54,370 nt of DNA, taken from Alkalihalobacillus bogoriensis ATCC BAA-922 (GTDB lineage: Bacteria > Bacillota > Bacilli > Bacillales > Bacillaceae_F). Every line of letters begins with the position of its first letter. Positions within the stretch are counted from its first letter, which is position 1. Made by a program: the position numbers and the translations under genes. The DNA is taken from positions 421,603 to 475,972 of the forward strand of contig NZ_KK211278.1 in assembly GCF_000621445.1 (NCBI RefSeq), given 5' to 3'. Below are positions 19,312 to 28,214 of this stretch, piece after piece. The notes beneath the pieces are model-generated. The model saw only the letters and a list, made by a program, of their open reading frames with translations, searched no databases and had not been told where the DNA came from.

Positions 19312-19344
19312 TTGTATAACTATTGTATAACTAAAGTATAACGA
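19312..19344 (+). promoter_or_regulatory. Three tandem 11-bp repeats upstream of carotenoid operon 1
   Basis: TTGTATAACTA (19312-19322), TTGTATAACTA (19323-19333) and AAGTATAACGA (19334-19344) are directly repeated at one helical turn, ending 17 bases before the crtN ATG. Related repeats stand before the second carotenoid operon (27427-27448). 11-bp direct repeats are the known operator form of CarH/LitR-type MerR regulators. A TTGTAT/TATAAC pair with 19-bp spacing lies within them, which would suit a MerR-type promoter. Confidence 0.6.
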
Positions 19345-19361
19345 ATTTAGGGGAGTTCAAC

Positions 19362-20858
19362 ATGGAAAAAAAGTCAGTCATTATTATTGGTTCTGGGCCA
19401 GGAGGTTTATCTACAGCAATGTTGCTTGCGAGTCAAGGTTTTGATGTAAATGTTTATGAAAAACGGTCACAAGTTGGGGGAAGAACGAGTTTAATACAAT
19501 TGGGAGAGTTTCAATTTGACCGAGGTCCAACGTTTCTAAGCATGCCTCATATTTTAGAAGAATTATTTACAGCGGCTAACCGAAACATGAATGACTATCT
19601 TGACTTAATTCAAGTTGATCCGATGTATGATCTCCTATTTGATGATGTTCGTTTTACACCATCAAGCGATCGAGAACAAACCAAAAGACAAATAGATGAA
19701 TTATTTCCTGAAAGTAGTGAAGGGTATGTCAGGTTTATGGAAGATACTGAAAGGAAAATGGAAAAACTTTTACCACTTTTACAAAATCGCTTTGATTCCA
19801 TTTTTGATTATGCCCGTTTACGAACATTTCGAGCGTTGCCGTATTTATCATTAGGAAAAACATTATATGACGTCCTCGGTGAGTATTTTGATGACGAACG
19901 ATTAAAGCTCTCGTTTACGTTTCAATCCAAATATTTAGGAATGTCACCATGGGAATGTCCAGGTGCGTTTAGTATTTTATCCTATATGGAACATAAGTAC
20001 GGGATTTTTCATCCAAGAGGGGGATTAAATCAAATTCCAAAAGCGCTTGAGAAGGTAACAAAAGAGTATGGTGGTCATGTTCATTTAAATTGTGGTGTTG
20101 ATAAATTACTAGTTAAAAATAAAAAAGTGGTCGGTGTACTGTTAGAAAATGGGGAACAAGCTTTTGCAGATGAAGTCATCATTAATGCTGATTTTGCCTA
20201 TGCAATGGAACAGTTACTTTCTAATGATGATGTTAAACGGTTTAAAAAAGAAAAACTAGAAAGAAAAGAGTATTCTTGTTCCACATTTATGATTTACCTT
20301 GGAATGAATTCAACCTTTGAGCTACCTCATCATACAGTTTTATTTGCAAATGATTATAAAAGAAATGTAGAAGAGATTATTGATAAAAAAGTGTTGTCCT
20401 TAGATCCTTCGATATATGTTCAATATGCACAAGCATCAGATAATACATTGGCTCCAGCGGGAAAGTCTACTTTATATATATTAGCCCCAGTTCCAAATAA
20501 TTATAGCTTGCTAGATTGGGAGACGAAAAAAGAAGAGTTTCGTAACTTAGTCTTATCCATTGTAGAATCTAAATTAAATCTTTCATTACGAACTTATATC
20601 GAAGAAGAGTTGGTCTTCACTCCAATAGACTGGGAATCGTCATTACATGTGTACAAAGGAGCCACGTTTAATTTATCGCATCATCTTCGACAAATGATGT
20701 ATTTCCGGCCACATAATAAATTTCAAGAACTTGACCATTGTTGGTTAGTTGGTGGTGGAACTCACCCAGGAAGCGGATTGCCGACGATATTTGAATCGGC
20801 GAAAATTACGTCCTCTATGATTATAAATAAATATAAAGCAAGGAGAGGGATCCGATGA
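19362..20858 (+). CDS. crtN: CrtN-type carotenoid desaturase (diapophytoene desaturase)
   Basis: This FAD-dependent enzyme introduces double bases into the C30 chain, 4,4'-diapophytoene to 4,4'-diaponeurosporene or diapolycopene. The N-terminal dinucleotide motif is IIIGSGPGGLSTAMLL, followed by YEKRSQVGGRTS and a FDRGPTFLSMP segment. The C-terminal signature VGGGTHPGSGLPTIFESAKIT matches CrtN. At 498 residues it has the normal length. GGGGAG lies eight bases before the ATG. It is the first gene of the plus-strand operon and overlaps the next by four bases. Among three paralogs in the island this one looks closest to S. aureus CrtN, but the assignment to this exact step is an inference. Confidence 0.85.
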   Translation: MEKKSVIIIGSGPGGLSTAMLLASQGFDVNVYEKRSQVGGRTSLIQLGEFQFDRGPTFLSMPHILEELFTAANRNMNDYLDLIQVDPMYDLLFDDVRFTPSSDREQTKRQIDELFPESSEGYVRFMEDTERKMEKLLPLLQNRFDSIFDYARLRTFRALPYLSLGKTLYDVLGEYFDDERLKLSFTFQSKYLGMSPWECPGAFSILSYMEHKYGIFHPRGGLNQIPKALEKVTKEYGGHVHLNCGVDKLLVKNKKVVGVLLENGEQAFADEVIINADFAYAMEQLLSNDDVKRFKKEKLERKEYSCSTFMIYLGMNSTFELPHHTVLFANDYKRNVEEIIDKKVLSLDPSIYVQYAQASDNTLAPAGKSTLYILAPVPNNYSLLDWETKKEEFRNLVLSIVESKLNLSLRTYIEEELVFTPIDWESSLHVYKGATFNLSHHLRQMMYFRPHNKFQELDHCWLVGGGTHPGSGLPTIFESAKITSSMIINKYKARRGIR

Positions 20859-22321
20859 AAACAGCGATAATTGGTGGGGGGATCGGAGGATTACTTAGCG
20901 CTTTATATTCGAGTTTACGAGGAGAAGAAGTGACGATTTTTGAAAAAGAGTCAAAAGTGGGTGGTCGATTATCGTTTATAGAAAAGGATGGTTACCGAGT
21001 GGATAAAGGTCCAACGATTGTCCTGTTACCACAAATGATAAAAGATATTCTTGAAGAAGTTGGTATAACCGAGAATCAAGTGGAGTTTATTCAAATTGAC
21101 CCATTGTATAAAATCAATTATTCTGACGGGTCCTATTTCTTTAAATGGAGTAACATCAATGAACAAATGAAAGAAATTCAACGAATGTTTCCTGGAGAAG
21201 AAGAAGGTTTTCCGCGTTATTTAAACGAGATGAAAGAACGATTTTCAAAAGGAAAGCAAGCATTTCTTGATAAGTCATTTGAACGTAAGTCACAATTTTG
21301 GACAGTGAAAAACATTCAGACATTGTGGCAGTTACGGGCATATGAAACCGTACAACAACAAATGAAACGTTACTTCCTATCTCCTAAGCTTCAAGAAGCC
21401 TTTTCATTTCAGACATTATATATTGGAGGGGCACCTTTCCGCTCTCCTGCGATGTACTCTTTAGTGCCTTATAGTGAGCATGTTCATGGGGTTTGGTATG
21501 TGAAAGGTGGTTATGCAAGTTTAATTGAAGTTCTGATCGAAAAGATAAAGGAGCATCCAACGATTTCGATCCGAACGAACACGGAAATCAAAAAAATCAT
21601 CGTGGAAAAAAATCGTTGCACAGCAATTCAAACAAAGGAAAATGAGGATATTTCCGTTGATCATGTTATCGTAAATGGTGATTTTCCCCTTATGGAACAA
21701 CTTGTAGAACAGAAAAGCAAGAAGTCTTATATCCCCTCGTCAGGTTGTTTATTAATTTATTTAGGCCTTAACAAAGTTTTTCAAGATACAAATGTACACC
21801 AATATTTTATGAGTGATTCATTTAGTGAAAGTATGGAAGATATTTTTGTTTATAAACGATTACCAAAGCACCCTTGCATTTATACTTTTCATCCGTCTGT
21901 TTTAGATTCAAGCCTAGCTCCAAAAGGAAAAGGAGTAATGTATATGCTTGTTCCTGTTCCTTCATCAAGTGCAGTGGATTGGAGCAATATTGACTCCTAT
22001 GTTGACCTTTTGTTAGAAGATGTGGAAAGTCGAGGCTTTCCGCAGTTACGTGAGGCCATTGAATGGAAAGTCATTCGTACACCAGAACAGGCAAAGAAGG
22101 AAGGGTTGTATGAAGGTGGAAGTTTCGGCATTGCTCCGACTCTTTTGCAGTCAGGTGTGTTCCGTCCACAATTAAAGCCTTTTCGCTATGAGAATGTATA
22201 TGCTGTTGGAGCTAGTGTTCATCCAGGTGGTGGAATTCCGATTGTCATGCAAGGAGCCAAATTGCTAAACGAATACAGGAAAGGAAGTGATTCATTTGAT
22301 GAGCATCGAGCAAGCGTATGA
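20855..22321 (+). CDS. Second CrtN/CrtI-family carotenoid oxidoreductase (CrtNc-like)
   Basis: This FAD-binding enzyme of 488 residues has IIGGGIGGLLSALYSSL, FEKESKVGGRLSFIEKDGYR and DKGPTIVLLP at the N-terminus and VGASVHPGGGIPIVMQGAK at the C-terminus. It overlaps the stop of the first desaturase (ATGA) and is followed, again with overlap, by the synthase. Bacilli with C30 pigments often hold three such paralogs, here one for desaturation (19362), one oxidase-like (23369) and this third. Its step may be further desaturation or terminal oxidation, and I cannot decide from sequence. Ribosome site: AAGGAGAGGG. Confidence 0.82.
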   Translation: MKTAIIGGGIGGLLSALYSSLRGEEVTIFEKESKVGGRLSFIEKDGYRVDKGPTIVLLPQMIKDILEEVGITENQVEFIQIDPLYKINYSDGSYFFKWSNINEQMKEIQRMFPGEEEGFPRYLNEMKERFSKGKQAFLDKSFERKSQFWTVKNIQTLWQLRAYETVQQQMKRYFLSPKLQEAFSFQTLYIGGAPFRSPAMYSLVPYSEHVHGVWYVKGGYASLIEVLIEKIKEHPTISIRTNTEIKKIIVEKNRCTAIQTKENEDISVDHVIVNGDFPLMEQLVEQKSKKSYIPSSGCLLIYLGLNKVFQDTNVHQYFMSDSFSESMEDIFVYKRLPKHPCIYTFHPSVLDSSLAPKGKGVMYMLVPVPSSSAVDWSNIDSYVDLLLEDVESRGFPQLREAIEWKVIRTPEQAKKEGLYEGGSFGIAPTLLQSGVFRPQLKPFRYENVYAVGASVHPGGGIPIVMQGAKLLNEYRKGSDSFDEHRASV

Positions 22322-23150
22322 ATACTGTAAGCAAATAATAGAAACTCATTCGAAAACTTTTGCAACCGCTTTTTCCATTTTGCCAACACATAAAAGAAAA
22401 GCAGTATGGGCGGTTTATGCCTTTTGTAGAACCGTCGATGATATTGTCGATGAAGAAAATGGAACAAGGCAAGAGTTAGAGCAATTCGAAAACGAGTGTC
22501 AGCGTTTTTTCAAAGGGGAGTTACTAGAACACCCAATATGGATTGCTTTGGATGATGTGCGAAGACACTTTCTTTTAGATAAACAACCTTTTTTAGATAT
22601 GATTAAAGGTCAAAAAATGGACTATATGAAGCATCGGTATGAAACACTAGCTGAGCTTGAACATTATTCCTATCATGTCGCTAGTACAGTAGGGTTAATG
22701 CTATTACCAATATTAGCCCCACATGAAGAAGAAAAGTTGAAAGAAGGAGCCATTGCATTAGGTTTAGCAATGCAGTTGACGAATATATTACGAGATGTTG
22801 GTGAAGACCTTCAAAAAGGAAGGGTGTATCTTCCAAAAGAAATACTTGATGAACATCATTATTCGTATACGGATTTAATGAAGCAGAACATTAATCCTCA
22901 TTTTATTGCAGTTTGGGAGTCAGTAGCATTGCGTGCGGAAAAATGGTATGAAAAAGCATCTTCAACAATATCCTATTATCCTCCTGATGCAAGAATACCT
23001 GTATATGCCTCGTTAACATTCTACCGTGAAATTTTGATGGCGGTAAGAAGAAATGGTTATAACGTATTTGAAACACGAGCGGTATTAACTAAAACAGAGC
23101 GGGAGCGTTTGTTACTTCAATTGCATGAGTCATTACATGTAGTAGTATAA
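22299..23150 (+). CDS. crtM: 4,4'-diapophytoene synthase (squalene/phytoene synthase family)
   Basis: This enzyme condenses two farnesyl diphosphates head to head into the C30 precursor. The two aspartate-rich motifs are visible: DDIVDEENG and, later, NILRDVGEDLQKGRVYLP. Also present are HSKTFATAFSILP at the N-terminus and KAVWAVYAFCRTVDD. The length is 283 residues. I start at ATG 22299 (MSIEQAYEYC), preceded by AGGAAGTG and overlapping the previous gene by 23 bases. It is the last gene of operon 1, with a terminator at 23151-23192. The C30 rather than C40 assignment is from the CrtM-like context. Confidence 0.9.
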   Translation: MSIEQAYEYCKQIIETHSKTFATAFSILPTHKRKAVWAVYAFCRTVDDIVDEENGTRQELEQFENECQRFFKGELLEHPIWIALDDVRRHFLLDKQPFLDMIKGQKMDYMKHRYETLAELEHYSYHVASTVGLMLLPILAPHEEEKLKEGAIALGLAMQLTNILRDVGEDLQKGRVYLPKEILDEHHYSYTDLMKQNINPHFIAVWESVALRAEKWYEKASSTISYYPPDARIPVYASLTFYREILMAVRRNGYNVFETRAVLTKTERERLLLQLHESLHVVV

Positions 23151-23192
23151 AAAAAAGAAGAAGGAGATTTTATCTCTCTTCTTCTTTTTTTT
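23151..23192 (+). terminator. Terminator of carotenoid operon 1
   Basis: AAGAAGAAGGAGA / TCTCTCTTCTTCTT stem followed by a run of T. Confidence 0.82.
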
Positions 23193-23207
23193 TTAAGATA
23201 AGAAACT

Positions 23208-23371
23208 ATAAAAATTTTGGTCTAGCAGCGAAGCCTTGAAAGCTTATTCTAGAAGAGCGAAGGCTGCGCACCTGCGCGTTTCACCCCAAGAAGAGCACTG
23301 GGGTTCACTGTCAAAAACGGGAAGGGCTCCGCACTTCGCTTGAAACGAAAAGACGCTCCGCGTTTTTCTTA
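23208..23371 (+). repeat. Family-1 dispersed repeat, full copy B
   Basis: This copy sits between the two converging carotenoid operons. The tail hairpin (ACGC-TCC-GCGT) ends at TTTTTCTTA, which contains the complement of the stop codon of the minus-strand oxidase gene (23369-23371). The element thus supplies terminator-like structure to operon 2. Confidence 0.85.
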
Positions 23372-24826
23372 AATAAGTGCTGCCACATTTTGTCCACTTA
23401 ACACAACCAGTGGTGAGCCCCCACCAGGATGTGTTGTGCCTCCTGTAAAATATAAATTTGCAATTTCCGTTGATTTATTTTGCGGACGAAAAAATGCTCC
23501 TTTAAATGAGTTGGAAGATGGACCATAAAGAGCCCCTTTATATGATAGAAAATCATTTGCAATTTGAGTTTGTGTTATTGTTTTCTCGTATACAATATGA
23601 GGTTTTAAGTCAAATCCAAATCTAGCAAGCTTTTTATAAATCGTTTCTTTATACTCATCTTCTGAAAAAGATGCTTCTTCACTAGATAAAGCGGGAGCAT
23701 TGACTAAAATAAATAAATTATCTCCATTTGGTGATTGAGCTTTTTCCGTATAAGAAGAATTACTAATATAAATAGTAGGATCCTTTGGCAATTGTGCTTG
23801 GTTAAATAATTGGTCGAATTCTTTTTTGTAATTCGAACTAAAAAAAACTTGGTGATGAATAAGGCCCTTAAGTCGTTTCCGTAATCCAACTAATAGAACG
23901 AATGCTGAAATGGAAGGGGAAATCGACGCAATTTTTTTATTCGAAAAGAAACGGCGATTTTCTTCTTTTACTAATGCAGGGTATGATTTCAAGATATCAC
24001 CATTTAAAATCATGATATCACCTGGAATAAATTCATCAAATTTTGTCATGACGCCAACAGCTTTTTTATTTTTGATTACAATTTCTTTTATACTGCAATT
24101 TGATTTTAATGTTACTCCTAGTTCTTGAGCACGCTTCACAAAACCATTAGCAATTTGTACGTTCCCCCCTTTGGTGAAATAAACGCCTTCGTTTAATTCA
24201 AGATGAGCAATCATCGCAAACGTTGCCGGAGCCAAATAGGGTGATGAGCCAATATAGGTGGCATACCGATTAAAAGATTGTTGTAAAAAAGGATGATGAA
24301 AATAAGTTTGGTGAAACTTGTCTAGCGATTGAAATGGTTTCACTTTTAAAAAAGCTTTCAGTAAAGACGGACGTGAAAAGCTTTTCCAGGATGTCGATGC
24401 TTGCCTAAGAAAATGGGTATTAGATGTTTGGTAAAATTGGCGCACCTTCTGTAAATATTTCGGGTATTGTTCTGCGCTATCATGACAATAATGTTCCATT
24501 TGCTCGATCATGTTTTTTTGACTAGTGGACATTGTAAAGGTTGACCTATCAAAAAAATGATTTTTCGTATGGGAAGAGAGTTTATGGAATTGAAAATAAT
24601 CGTCCGGATTTGCATGTGTTTGCAAAAGGACATCTTGGAAAACATGAGGCATCGTAATCGTATTCGGTCCAAAATCAAACCGATAAGTCTCAAAAGAAAA
24701 AGGTTTTAACTTTCCACCGAAATGGTTATTCTTTTCAAATAATGTAACATCATACCCTTTAAAAGCTAATGATATGGCAGCAGAAAGACCTCCTAAGCCA
24801 CCGCCAATGATGAGGACTGTTTTCAT
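23369..24826 (-). CDS. crtP: CrtP-like carotenoid oxidase (diaponeurosporene oxidase, CrtNb)
   Basis: This FAD-dependent enzyme probably oxidises a terminal methyl group of the C30 chain to the aldehyde or acid, giving a handle for glycosylation. Motifs are IIGGGLGGLSAAISLA, FEKNNHFGGKLKPF, FDFGPNTITMP, YIGSSPYLAPATFAM, GALYGPSSN and GGTTHPGGGSPLVVLSGQ. These last ones resemble S. aureus CrtP more than CrtN. The ATG at 24826 overlaps the upstream glycosyltransferase stop (ATGA). The length is 485 residues. It is the last gene of operon 2. No aldehyde dehydrogenase gene is in the cluster, so the second oxidation must come from elsewhere or from this enzyme. Confidence 0.82.
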   Translation of the reverse strand: MKTVLIIGGGLGGLSAAISLAFKGYDVTLFEKNNHFGGKLKPFSFETYRFDFGPNTITMPHVFQDVLLQTHANPDDYFQFHKLSSHTKNHFFDRSTFTMSTSQKNMIEQMEHYCHDSAEQYPKYLQKVRQFYQTSNTHFLRQASTSWKSFSRPSLLKAFLKVKPFQSLDKFHQTYFHHPFLQQSFNRYATYIGSSPYLAPATFAMIAHLELNEGVYFTKGGNVQIANGFVKRAQELGVTLKSNCSIKEIVIKNKKAVGVMTKFDEFIPGDIMILNGDILKSYPALVKEENRRFFSNKKIASISPSISAFVLLVGLRKRLKGLIHHQVFFSSNYKKEFDQLFNQAQLPKDPTIYISNSSYTEKAQSPNGDNLFILVNAPALSSEEASFSEDEYKETIYKKLARFGFDLKPHIVYEKTITQTQIANDFLSYKGALYGPSSNSFKGAFFRPQNKSTEIANLYFTGGTTHPGGGSPLVVLSGQNVAALI

Positions 24827-25926
24827 GAGTAATGTCTTCCTTTCCAAGTAAATCCTTTATGAGTAACATAAGCTATCATTGCATGTAAAAGTAAGATAAT
24901 GAGAAAAAGCGATGAAAATGGCATGAGAAAACTGAGCCAAAACGTTTGTTTTGTTTTCAAATCAACATAAGCACGAATCAACACGACGATACATAACGGA
25001 ACTAAGAATATATAAGAAGAAGTTAACACGCCGAAACTAGCTAAAAAGAGAGGACTAACAAAAAATAGAAAATACACAACAATGATGAAAGCTCCAAGGA
25101 GAAACGATCGACCGATCCCGTTGAAGATATTTTTCAAAAATCCTTCCCATACTTCTCTATTTGTTTCATACATATAACAAGATGCTGTTGTTGTCACATT
25201 TGCGAGTAAAACTGAAAACTGATTTTCTTTCATGTTTCTTGTTAATTGGACATCTTCCACAATCTGTTGTTTTACTTGTACATGCCCTCCAATATCTTCA
25301 TATGACTTACTATGAAAAAACATAAATGCACCATGTGCAGCAGAGAAAAGTGGAACTTTTGTTTGATTGGCTATCATTAATGGCAAATGAAAAAACACAA
25401 TAAAATGCTGCATAGGGACGAGAAGTTGGCTGAGAAATGATGATGTCGGAAAATGAGGAAATCCTGTAATTAACCGACATTTTCGTTGTTCCATTGTTGA
25501 AACACATCTTTCGATTGCTCGTTGATGAAGCCGAACATCAGCATCAATAAAAAAATAGTACTCCCCAGTCGCCTTTTTGCTTAGTTGATGGCAAGCATAA
25601 GATTTCCCGATCCAACCTGGAGGTAATGGCTCCCCTTTTATTAGTTGTATCTGTTTTATGGTTTTTCGCTTTTCTTCAATAAGCGCAACGGTTTTGTCTG
25701 TTGAATGGTCATCAAGTAAAATGATTTCTACATTTGAATATGTAAGCTTATCAATTGAGTCGAGTAGCCCTTTGATATTTCTTTCCTCATTCCGCAATGG
25801 AATAAGGAGAGAAACTCGAGGGTGAGGTTGTGCGATGTTTTCTTCTTTAAGGGTAGGGAGAAAAAGCGAGTTGAAAATAACCCAGACGAAAAAGAAACAT
25901 AAAACGATAATAAAAACATCAATCAT
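24823..25926 (-). CDS. crtQ: Family 2 glycosyltransferase, CrtQ-like
   Basis: This membrane-bound transferase of 367 residues probably attaches a sugar to the carboxylated C30 carotenoid, as CrtQ does in staphyloxanthin synthesis. One N-terminal helix precedes the GT-A domain: SLLIPLRNEERNI, ILLDDHSTDKT, FFIDADVRL (the DxD metal site) and QIVEDVQLTR. Three or four C-terminal membrane helices follow and the chain ends in FTWKGRHYS. It overlaps neighbours on both sides by four bases, so it is tightly coupled. The sugar and acceptor are inferred from context. Confidence 0.85.
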   Translation of the reverse strand: MIDVFIIVLCFFFVWVIFNSLFLPTLKEENIAQPHPRVSLLIPLRNEERNIKGLLDSIDKLTYSNVEIILLDDHSTDKTVALIEEKRKTIKQIQLIKGEPLPPGWIGKSYACHQLSKKATGEYYFFIDADVRLHQRAIERCVSTMEQRKCRLITGFPHFPTSSFLSQLLVPMQHFIVFFHLPLMIANQTKVPLFSAAHGAFMFFHSKSYEDIGGHVQVKQQIVEDVQLTRNMKENQFSVLLANVTTTASCYMYETNREVWEGFLKNIFNGIGRSFLLGAFIIVVYFLFFVSPLFLASFGVLTSSYIFLVPLCIVVLIRAYVDLKTKQTFWLSFLMPFSSLFLIILLLHAMIAYVTHKGFTWKGRHYS

Positions 25927-26633
25927 ACTTTTTTCTCCTTAAATAAACATTCTTTTAGAGAAGGATAGCCTCCAAGCAACATATCATAATGAGAAGTTGC
26001 TTCATGAATAATGGATAGCCTTTGATTATTTAATTGACATGTGATAACTTTTTCAAACCATGAGGTCATCTCTTTTACTGACATGTTTTTTAAATGACGA
26101 GAATGAAGAGGGGACCCGATATAAATATAAACATTTGGTTTACGGTTACGGCCAAAAGAATAATAAAATGTAATCGGAATCATTTGCACGTCTTGTTTAA
26201 AAGCAAGATGGGCTGCTCCTTTTTTAAACAACAGTGGTCTTTTCTCTAAGTGTTGTTCTTCCCCTTGTGGGAACATCCATAACGTTTTTCTGTTTTGTAG
26301 CAATGTTGTAGCATAAGTTAATGATTCTTTTAAATGGTGTAATGACTCGAGTGAAATAGAAAAGGCCCCTAGCTTTCTAAAAAAAGAATATCGCTGTAAG
26401 CCAGCTTCACTCATCATGACATAATGGTCACCATTCAACACGGTTTTTGTTAAATGAAAGGAGAGTAAACCATCCCACCAACTACTGTGGTTAACAAGGA
26501 TTAACGAAGCGTTTGTAAGTGAAATTGGTTCATGTTGATAAAGATAAATTTTATGAAAAGATTTTCTTAATAAATGCAAATTATAAACATGAAACAATGT
26601 GGAAAACATCCGAGACTTTTTCGCTTTTAACAT
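25923..26633 (-). CDS. PlsC-type acyltransferase of the carotenoid operon
   Basis: This 236-residue protein of the lysophosphatidate acyltransferase superfamily has the catalytic motif NHSSWWD (H-x4-D) near residue 48 and an FPQGEE motif (normally FPEGT) near residue 118. In this operon it probably adds a fatty acid to the glycosylated carotenoid, the role of CrtO in S. aureus, although CrtO belongs to a different-looking family. The FPQG instead of FPEG variant is common in this subgroup as I recall it, but I am not certain. It overlaps both neighbouring genes. Confidence 0.8.
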   Translation of the reverse strand: MLKAKKSRMFSTLFHVYNLHLLRKSFHKIYLYQHEPISLTNASLILVNHSSWWDGLLSFHLTKTVLNGDHYVMMSEAGLQRYSFFRKLGAFSISLESLHHLKESLTYATTLLQNRKTLWMFPQGEEQHLEKRPLLFKKGAAHLAFKQDVQMIPITFYYSFGRNRKPNVYIYIGSPLHSRHLKNMSVKEMTSWFEKVITCQLNNQRLSIIHEATSHYDMLLGGYPSLKECLFKEKKV

Positions 26634-27403
26634 ACGCTTTTCTTCCTTACACTATAGAAATATAAAACTAGTAATAATGAAGTACAAACAAAAGACAAGC
26701 CGACGGCGAACCAAAGCGTTGCAACTGCAGCAATCGTCATAAACATGATGACCATAAGAGCATATAAAAGAACCATCCTAGAAGCCCATGCATGAGAACA
26801 AATCGGACGATGAAAAACGAGAAATACAAGGATGATATGTAAGAATAGAGAGATGATAAACCAGTCAACGAAATTCGTTATAGGGATGCCGTAGTATAGA
26901 CCTGTCCCATCCCATTCCCAATATTGTTTTACCTTGTAAGCAACGGGGTCTAAGATTAAATCCATTACGACAGCAGCAACAGGTGATATGATGAGATATA
27001 GTGCTATTTGTTTCCATTTTTGAGTAAACAGGTGTTGGCTAATGGTTTTACCAATCACATGCGTTGTTGCAATTACCATCAACCACGCAAAGCCAATAGT
27101 TATAGGAACATCGATGATTTTCGGACCGAAATCAGCATTGTAAAAATAATGTCCAAACAAAATGCCATATGTAACTCCAACCCATTCGGCAAATATCGTT
27201 CCTGTTACTACAACAAAGCTTATAAGCAATCCAATGAAATAGCCGTATGATGTAACAAAGAAAATGGCACCTAACAATCCTGTTAACAATAAAAAGACAG
27301 TGTTGGCCCATTCTAACCATGGCGGCAGAAGGTCAAACGTTAGTAAAATAAGTCCACAACTATACCAAAAGATAAAAAAGCGAAAAATCAATTGACTAAA
27401 CAT
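26627..27403 (-). CDS. Carotenoid biosynthesis membrane protein (PF04240, CruF-related)
   Basis: This 258-residue integral membrane protein has about seven or eight helices. It carries the family pattern FAEWVGVTYGILFGHYFYN and LDPVAYKVKQYWEWDGTGLYYGIPITNFVDWF, with conserved charged residues (E, H, D, W) inside membrane segments. The family includes the carotenoid 1,2-hydratases CruF of Deinococcus and haloarchaea. Its presence as first gene of a C30 operon suggests a hydration or other end-group change, yet the same operon oxidises and glycosylates ends. The exact reaction is unknown here. The promoter region holds two TTGTAYAAT-type 11-bp repeats. Confidence 0.85.
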   Translation of the reverse strand: MFSQLIFRFFIFWYSCGLILLTFDLLPPWLEWANTVFLLLTGLLGAIFFVTSYGYFIGLLISFVVVTGTIFAEWVGVTYGILFGHYFYNADFGPKIIDVPITIGFAWLMVIATTHVIGKTISQHLFTQKWKQIALYLIISPVAAVVMDLILDPVAYKVKQYWEWDGTGLYYGIPITNFVDWFIISLFLHIILVFLVFHRPICSHAWASRMVLLYALMVIMFMTIAAVATLWFAVGLSFVCTSLLLVLYFYSVRKKSVC

Positions 27404-27426
27404 AGCTCACCACCGTTAAATAACTT

Positions 27427-27448
27427 TTGTATAATGATTGTACAATAA
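27427..27448. promoter_or_regulatory. Tandem 11-bp repeats between carotenoid operon 2 and the SDR gene
   Basis: TTGTATAATGA (27427-27437) and TTGTACAATAA (27438-27448) are direct repeats closely related to those at 19312-19344; a weaker unit may precede (27416-27426). They lie in the 67-bp space between the divergent operon 2 and SDR gene and could control both. Confidence 0.6.
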
Positions 27449-27470
27449 AAATAGAAAGGATGAAACGGAT

Positions 27471-28214
27471 ATGTTTGAAAAAATGGTTGTAATGGTCACA
27501 GGGGGAGCACAAGGAATCGGAAAAAGTATTGCAGAGCATTATTGTCAACAAGGAGCTCGTGTTGTGATTACAGATATGAATAAAGAAAAAGGGGAGAGTA
27601 CTGCGACTGAGCTTTTAGTAAATAAAGGGACGTGCACATTTTATCCGCTCGATGTTCGAGAGCCTTCTGAGATTGTTACGGTCATGAAAACAATTGAAGA
27701 TGACTTTGGTCAATTGGATATTCTTATTAATAATGCTGCTATAAATAAGTGGAAATCTCCGTATGAATTAGATATAGATGAGTGGGATAATGTGTTAAAA
27801 ACAAATATAACCGGCCCATTTCTTTGTTCTAGAGAAGCGGCAAAACTAATGAAGAAAAGAAAGAAAGGTTCAATTGTTAATATTGCCTCAACACGAGCAC
27901 TTATGTCAGAACCTCATTCTGAAGCATATGCAGCTTCAAAAGGGGGATTGCTAGCTTTAACGCATGCATTAAGTGCGTCTTTTCAAGAGGATGGGATCCA
28001 AGTGAATGCGATAAGCCCAGGATGGATCGAAACAGGAGCATATGAACAAGTACGGGAAGTTGACCACATGCAGCACTTTTCAAATCGAGTCGGACTGCCA
28101 AAAGATATAGCTAATGCATGTTTATTTTTAACACATCCAGAAAATCGGTTTGTTAATGGAGAAAATATCGTTATTGATGGAGGGATGACAAGAAAGATGA
28201 TATATGAGGAATAA
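27471..28214 (+). CDS. Short-chain dehydrogenase/reductase
   Basis: This 247-residue classical SDR has TGGAQGIG for the cofactor, NNAA, a catalytic Ser in NIASTRAL and YAASK. The C-terminus (NPENRFVNGENIVIDGGMT) is the family ending. GAAAGGATG precedes the ATG at 27471; the longer frame from 27438 starts inside the operator repeats. The substrate is unknown. The shared control region with the carotenoid operon makes a link to pigment or redox metabolism possible but not shown. Confidence 0.88.
   Translation: MFEKMVVMVTGGAQGIGKSIAEHYCQQGARVVITDMNKEKGESTATELLVNKGTCTFYPLDVREPSEIVTVMKTIEDDFGQLDILINNAAINKWKSPYELDIDEWDNVLKTNITGPFLCSREAAKLMKKRKKGSIVNIASTRALMSEPHSEAYAASKGGLLALTHALSASFQEDGIQVNAISPGWIETGAYEQVREVDHMQHFSNRVGLPKDIANACLFLTHPENRFVNGENIVIDGGMTRKMIYEE

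Follow-up and report, generated by a model that had tools for sequence, protein, structure and literature searches.

The seven carotenoid genes of the window (the whole 54,370-nucleotide stretch of Alkalihalobacillus bogoriensis DNA analysed here) lie between two arrays of tandem 11-bp repeats. We consider it very likely that both arrays are operators of a single repressor, a B12-dependent photoreceptor of the LitR/CarH type, which would switch the whole island. Loaded with adenosylcobalamin, LitR would in the dark lie as an oligomer along the tandem 11-bp units just before the genes and keep RNA polymerase off crtN, the CruF operon and a neighbouring short-chain dehydrogenase (SDR) gene, and it would also repress litR itself and a SpoIIAA-like gene. 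Light would then break the cobalt-carbon bond, the oligomer would fall apart, and the entire pigment island would come on together. For binding, promoter overlap, repression and the response to light and B12 we argue by analogy with Thermus, Myxococcus and B. megaterium. What began as a guess from the letters of one locus thereby gains a specific pairing of regulator and operator, with a test across the order behind it, and the operator model predicts LitR targets.

Two repeat arrays around the pigment island

The first array, predicted operator 1 (19312-19344, minus strand), is defined by its repeats and their conservation and consists of three tandem 11-bp units before crtN. On the plus strand these read TTGTATAACTA (19312-19322), TTGTATAACTA (19323-19333) and AAGTATAACGA (19334-19344), and on the minus strand TAGTTATACAA, TAGTTATACAA and a degenerate TCGTTATACTT; the array ends 17 bp ahead of the crtN ATG at 19362. 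Predicted operator 2 (27416-27448, minus strand) also has three tandem units, two good and one degenerate, and occupies the 67-bp gap (27404-27470) between the CruF and SDR genes: a degenerate unit, TTAAATAACTT (27416-27426), stands ahead of the good units TTGTATAATGA (27427-27437) and TTGTACAATAA (27438-27448). Since 23 bp separate the good units from the start of CruF and 22 bp from that of the SDR gene, both genes are candidate targets of operator 2. The positions given in the initial annotation, three repeats with 17 bp between their end and crtN and two within the 67-bp gap, are confirmed.

Domain matches likewise confirm its description of seven pigment genes flanked by both arrays and arranged as two converging operons. 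The plus-strand operon comprises a crtN-type desaturase as its first gene (19362-20858; TIGR02734, 462 bits, above cut-off), a second CrtN-family enzyme (20855-22321; TIGR02734, 348 bits, above cut-off) and a CrtM-type squalene/phytoene synthase (22287-23150; PF00494, 258 bits). The minus-strand operon opens with a CruF-like carotenoid hydratase (26627-27403; PF04240, 118 bits), followed by an acyltransferase (25923-26633; PF01553), a family 2 glycosyltransferase (24823-25926; PF00535) and, as its last gene, a third CrtN-family enzyme (23369-24826; TIGR02734, 340 bits, above cut-off). Beyond operator 2 lies the plus-strand SDR gene (27471-28214). Between the converging operons (23150-23365), inspection by eye showed an unusual GC-rich stretch and what may be a hairpin with a run of T.

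The suggestion that the repeats are of the CarH/LitR type agrees with the published operator unit of the family, which is nnnnTnnACAn or nAnnTnnACAn in the accessible portions of PMC9304148 and PMC8156234. TAGTTATACAA, the reverse complement of TTGTATAACTA, fits nAnnTnnACAn completely; against nnnnTnnACAn, two units of operator 1 are perfect and the remaining one has 3 of the 4 letters, and operator 2 has two that are perfect by eye. CarH arrays, according to the same partial sources (PMC9304148, PMC8156234), hold three units in Thermus and four (or three plus a pseudorepeat) in B. megaterium, and overlap the -35 or the -10 element. Here, a scan of the crtN gap and the CruF-SDR gap for a consensus sigma-70 promoter found none, and a terminator scan gave no match either; the short distance from the arrays to the genes hints at promoter overlap and is suggestive only.

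A pattern built from both arrays matches six times in the window when up to 3 mismatches are allowed, where 1.30 matches are expected, and at up to 1 mismatch it occurs at three places in the 5.0-Mb genome while the reversed pattern has none. The test of random genome-wide occurrence, which had been envisaged as an objection, did not refute the interpretation. Two of the three places defined the pattern, which leaves one independent match, located before a SpoIIAA-like gene. When the published CarH unit alone is used, over three units and with 11 or more of 12 letters required, the window gives one match, at crtN, compared with 0.475 in shuffles, which is not significant; under the same three-unit test the CruF-SDR gap falls below 11 of 12 letters. 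The significance of the arrays rests on their conservation and on their co-occurrence with the regulator.

For the conservation of both flanks we inspected ten hand-picked islands: that of the window's own genome (G000) and those of G001, G002, G003, G004, G008, G025, G030, G033 and G041 (L146 and L152 are repeats of G003 and G004). A CruF-end site scoring at least 16 is present in six of them (own, G001, G002, G003, G004 and G008), and in these six the crtN score is also at least 15 (exactly 15 in G002); the test of missing conservation, named beforehand as a ground for refutation, did not refute the reading. The second site at this score is absent in the other four, a distribution that would suit two independent regulons, with LitR acting at crtN and operator 2 serving the SDR only, as would the TTG-reading strand of operator 2, which points to the SDR with a gap of 22 bp (17 bp at crtN). 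We regard such a division as very unlikely, given the Alkalihalobacterium islands (G003, G004), in which there is no SDR match at that place and the second site still precedes CruF. In Alkalihalobacterium chitinilyticum the next upstream gene lies on the same strand as CruF and ends before the site, which leaves CruF as the only evident target, and in G053 a site stands 24 bp before CruF. A six-sequence alignment of the CruF end, moreover, has the repeat block kept amid diverged flanks. Together, this conserved block and the CruF-only setting of A. chitinilyticum make the minus-strand pigment operon a predicted target of LitR.

The SDR gene, which had been raised as a possible further member, borders the site-bearing gap in G000, G001, G002 and G008 and probably belongs to the LitR regulon too. 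In G010 (L106, 812-2676) a repeat site separates folE from an adjoining 56% relative of the window's SDR. In the Pseudomonas clusters described in the accessible part of PMC9758184, folE stands with folM (dihydromonapterin reductase) and is linked to LitR; from these two neighbourhoods one might speculate that the window's SDR is a pterin reductase. In G053 (L036) one site is located between a CruF operon and, divergent from it, the gene for a type 2 isopentenyl-diphosphate isomerase; if operative there, it would place precursor supply under control shared with the CruF operon.

A LitR/CarH-family protein in the same genome

The genome-wide search for a MerR gene with a B12-binding domain that the initial annotation had recommended was successful. 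Three places in the window's own genome match the B12-binding_2 domain, and one of them is also a MerR match: litR, at 1613-2521 of contig C13 (C numbers denote contigs of G000), which encodes 302 amino acids and lies on a contig other than the window's. The genome has 14 MerR_1 matches, none of them inside the window, in keeping with the earlier statement that no CarH-type regulator is encoded there. The N-terminal helix-turn-helix of LitR matches MerR_1 (PF13411) with 52.4 bits against a cut-off of 21.6, the C-terminal B12 domains match PF02607 (48 bits) and PF02310 (49.5 bits), both above cut-off, and residues 3-236 of 302 align with Thermus CarH (PDB 5C8D) at E = 1.7e-25. Both B12 motifs are present, WENNEITIAHEH conforming to Wx9EH and EKHELG to ExHxxG, the second of which we take to be a motif of the LitR/CarH family. 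Wx9EH is named as a family motif in the available text of PMC8156234. With NCBIfam NF052513, the CarH equivalog model, LitR scores 130 bits, under the curated cut-off of 400, and we therefore file it by its domains and motifs as a member of the LitR/CarH family, not as an equivalog.

The promoter of litR itself carries a site with 3 mismatches to the window pattern, a level at which the own genome has 36 matches against 14 for the reversed control; its two units are both perfect to the published consensus, and TTTACA-17-TATACT, readable by eye under the site, is a possible promoter. In B. megaterium, litR is reportedly autorepressed, according to a 2015 study. Among the best 30 litR promoter regions, 18 reach p<=0.05; 24 reach 10 of 12 letters at a spacing of 11 bp, but 18 do so at a spacing of 9.

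The LitR/CarH system of Bacillus (Priestia) megaterium QM B1551 is similar in its Gram-positive host, its MerR and B12 protein and its tandem 11-bp repeats, and LitR with B12 there controls crt genes that are repressed in the dark (PMC6739363 and PMC9758184, accessible parts). Secondary and partial descriptions of that strain give arrays of four units, whereas those here have three; the arrays here, set beside that system, flank converging two-operon pigment genes, and litR is on another contig. With CarH of Thermus thermophilus (5C8D) the present system shares, as far as the partial sources extend, the domain order, both B12 motifs, the three-unit operator and the unit consensus, but the target genes are unlike. 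The class II LitR proteins PplR and PmlR of Pseudomonas also have TGTAYA-based sites before light genes, and their regulons count short-chain dehydrogenases and folE among the genes linked to light; they differ in half-sites that are N12 apart and in a light signal that comes from a LOV protein (PMC9758184, in the sections available).

Co-occurrence of repeats and LitR

The first comparison covered 61 genomes, the window's own and 60 relatives, of which 39 were counted as LitR-positive at E <= 1e-50. Weaker matches in G028, G031 and G053 were counted as negative (in G053 the protein carries both B12 motifs and the repeats are present at crtN), while G054 and G059 were counted as positive despite missing both motifs. 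At up to 1 mismatch the pattern has 53 matches in 27 genomes against 9 for the reversed control, and sites occur in 25 of 39 LitR-positive and 2 of 22 LitR-negative genomes (p 3e-5), a table weakened by the reversed control, which also leaned to LitR-positive genomes (8 vs 0, p 0.04). The 46 loci inspected, whose gene names were checked for examples and otherwise assigned by resemblance, divide into 12 before crtN, 4 at CruF and/or SDR, 11 beside Spx/MgsR-family genes (8 of them MgsR-like, the other 3 Spx proper), 4 each before a SpoIIAA-like gene and before dnaA, 2 before a CrtD-like enzyme, 1 before folE and 8 elsewhere.

In the region ahead of crtN, the top-scoring tandem pair reaches at least 15 of 18, a cut set after the crtN scores of relatives had been seen, in 21 of 24 LitR-positive and 1 of 4 LitR-negative genomes, and the published unit by itself, at p<=0.05, gives 21 of 24 and 1 of 4 as well. 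The LitR-positive relatives that fail are G054, G023 and G042 by the published unit and G033, G054 and G042 by a score below 15; the sole LitR-negative exception is G053, with its distant B12-MerR protein holding both motifs. The spacing is specific: 22 of 28 crtN regions (a count that leaves out two paralogue rows, L140 and L141) reach 10 of 12 letters at 11 bp, against 3, 1, 5 and 5 at 9, 10, 12 and 13 bp.

In the named-species test, the crtN regions of 80 loci were scored before LitR was sought; 79 genomes were counted, that of L153 being left out, and the 26% partial match of L208 was taken as no LitR. Repeats at crtN are present in 47 of the 63 genomes whose LitR has both B12 motifs, in none of the 6 whose LitR is without both motifs (three Alkalicoccobacillus and three Shouchella) and in none of the 10 without LitR (Marinococcus, Geomicrobium and a relative, Salimicrobium and one MAG), with a Fisher p of 2.8e-8 that ignores kinship. 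The 16 both-motif genomes lacking repeats are all 12 of Exiguobacterium and four others that score 12-14.

The Exiguobacterium loci (L189-L191, L193, L195, L197, L206, L209, L213, L216, L217 and L221) have no TTGTAYAA repeats at crtN, and the helix region of their LitR differs (TTIRAWE vs GTLRAWE) with both B12 motifs kept; one possible reading is a changed operator or changed targets. LitR proteins that have the MerR helix and lack both B12 motifs were seen at L262, L263, L264, L265, L311 and L312 (Alkalicoccobacillus and Shouchella) and at L272 (G059). These are possibly B12-blind regulators or remnants of a decaying light switch, and the lineages among them that lack crtN repeats offer a natural experiment on the decay or change of such a switch.

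The order-wide set comprised 299 genomes, with LitR called at E <= 1e-30. Sites occur in 156 of 192 LitR-positive and 22 of 107 LitR-negative genomes (p 3.5e-25), or 455 vs 32 sites, equivalent to 2.37 vs 0.30 per genome over a reversed-pattern background of 0.36 and 0.26, respectively; the reversed control leans less in this table (64 of 192 vs 26 of 107, p 0.12). Kinship was handled by a within-family shuffle alone: with LitR status shuffled within families in 5000 trials, the mean was 406 and the highest value 434 sites, vs the 455 observed. Of 18 families with both LitR-positive and LitR-negative members, 16 have more sites with LitR and two have fewer.

Tracking of this kind is not expected of a universal regulator or of stacked promoters. 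The arrays do contain TATAAC, TATAAT and TACAAT within their units, and together with the non-significant published-unit match in the window this would agree with the idea, very unlikely in our judgement, that they are merely stacked AT-rich -10-like (TATAAT) promoter sequences without a regulator; such a reading could well be right for spx, whose best score of 16 is also reached in the LitR-negative G006 and G040. At the pigment genes it is opposed by the specific 11-bp spacing at crtN, by the block conserved before CruF within diverged flanks, and by the way in which array presence follows LitR in the named-species and 299-genome tests. Sites for OmpR-family response regulators, which bind hexamers spaced 11 bp, would share the period of the arrays, but we find this hardly credible, as regulators of the PhoP, WalR and ResD type, to our knowledge universal in Bacillales, fail to explain 0.30 vs 2.37 sites per genome without and with LitR, or the missing crtN sites where LitR is without B12 motifs (0 of 6).

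Control of the island by one LitR protein is supported by the joint presence or absence, with exceptions, of repeats and a B12-motif LitR across species, and the island is probably, as first proposed, a single regulon dependent on light and B12. As the pairing of array and LitR is common to many relatives, it is probably a light switch of a type already known, here with a new host.

Candidate targets beyond the pigment genes

The independent third site in the own genome (C31:4011-4043) precedes the SpoIIAA-like gene, and across the genomes compared this gene has a site in 4 of 4 LitR-positive and 0 of 1 LitR-negative cases. More widespread are three-unit arrays at mgsR-like genes, which are found in 16 of 18 LitR-positive genomes; in 15 of these the match extends to all 12 letters of the consensus. 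Of 30 mgsR/spx regions with loci, the 19 best were classed as mgsR-like in the analyst's judgement, and 17 of these 19 reach 10 of 12 letters at a spacing of 11 bp, vs 6, 3, 4 and 5 at 9, 10, 12 and 13 bp. The single LitR-negative genome with mgsR, G048, reaches 12 of 12 by the published unit, but fails the TTGTAYAA score (13), and the spx regions elsewhere, none of which (0 of 11) passes the published-unit test, come mostly from LitR-negative genomes (8 of 11), which leaves the mgsR link without a fair control of this kind. No gene of the window's genome is mgsR-like at that level; its single match, at 46%, is Spx-like.

The accessible part of PMC7235348 places MgsR in the SigB regulon and describes it as a paralogue of Spx that is sensitive to redox state. 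No paper connecting CarH with Spx in Bacillus turned up in the literature searched, which was mostly outside subscription journals, and among the listed papers on mgsR and light no such link was seen. We suggest tentatively, and with somewhat more doubt than conviction, that in many Bacillales LitR may directly repress mgsR, and in some lineages also the SpoIIAA-like gene and folE, with light acting via B12 to gate part of the stress response. If the mgsR link is true, many bacilli would have a redox stress regulator wired straight to light and B12.

Pattern matches also lie beside spx proper in three LitR-positive genomes (L050, L052 and L097), one of which, G002, belongs to the window's genus. 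As a target in the window's family spx is not supported: the best upstream score is 15-16 in eight genomes, and the 16 is shared by the two LitR-negative genomes named above. Weak sites were inspected in the own genome at 11 loci, at three places in L034/L035 and at matches on C11 and C13; eight of the 11 loci with 3-mismatch sites fall inside open reading frames, and none was accepted as a target. In four LitR-positive genomes (L051, L060, L061 and L099), tandem pairs of the TTGTACAAC type stand just upstream of dnaA and are possibly the site of another protein. At about position 4584 of L034 (G000 C3:230583-230615), weak tandem units with 3 mismatches lie just upstream of a LacI-type regulator gene.
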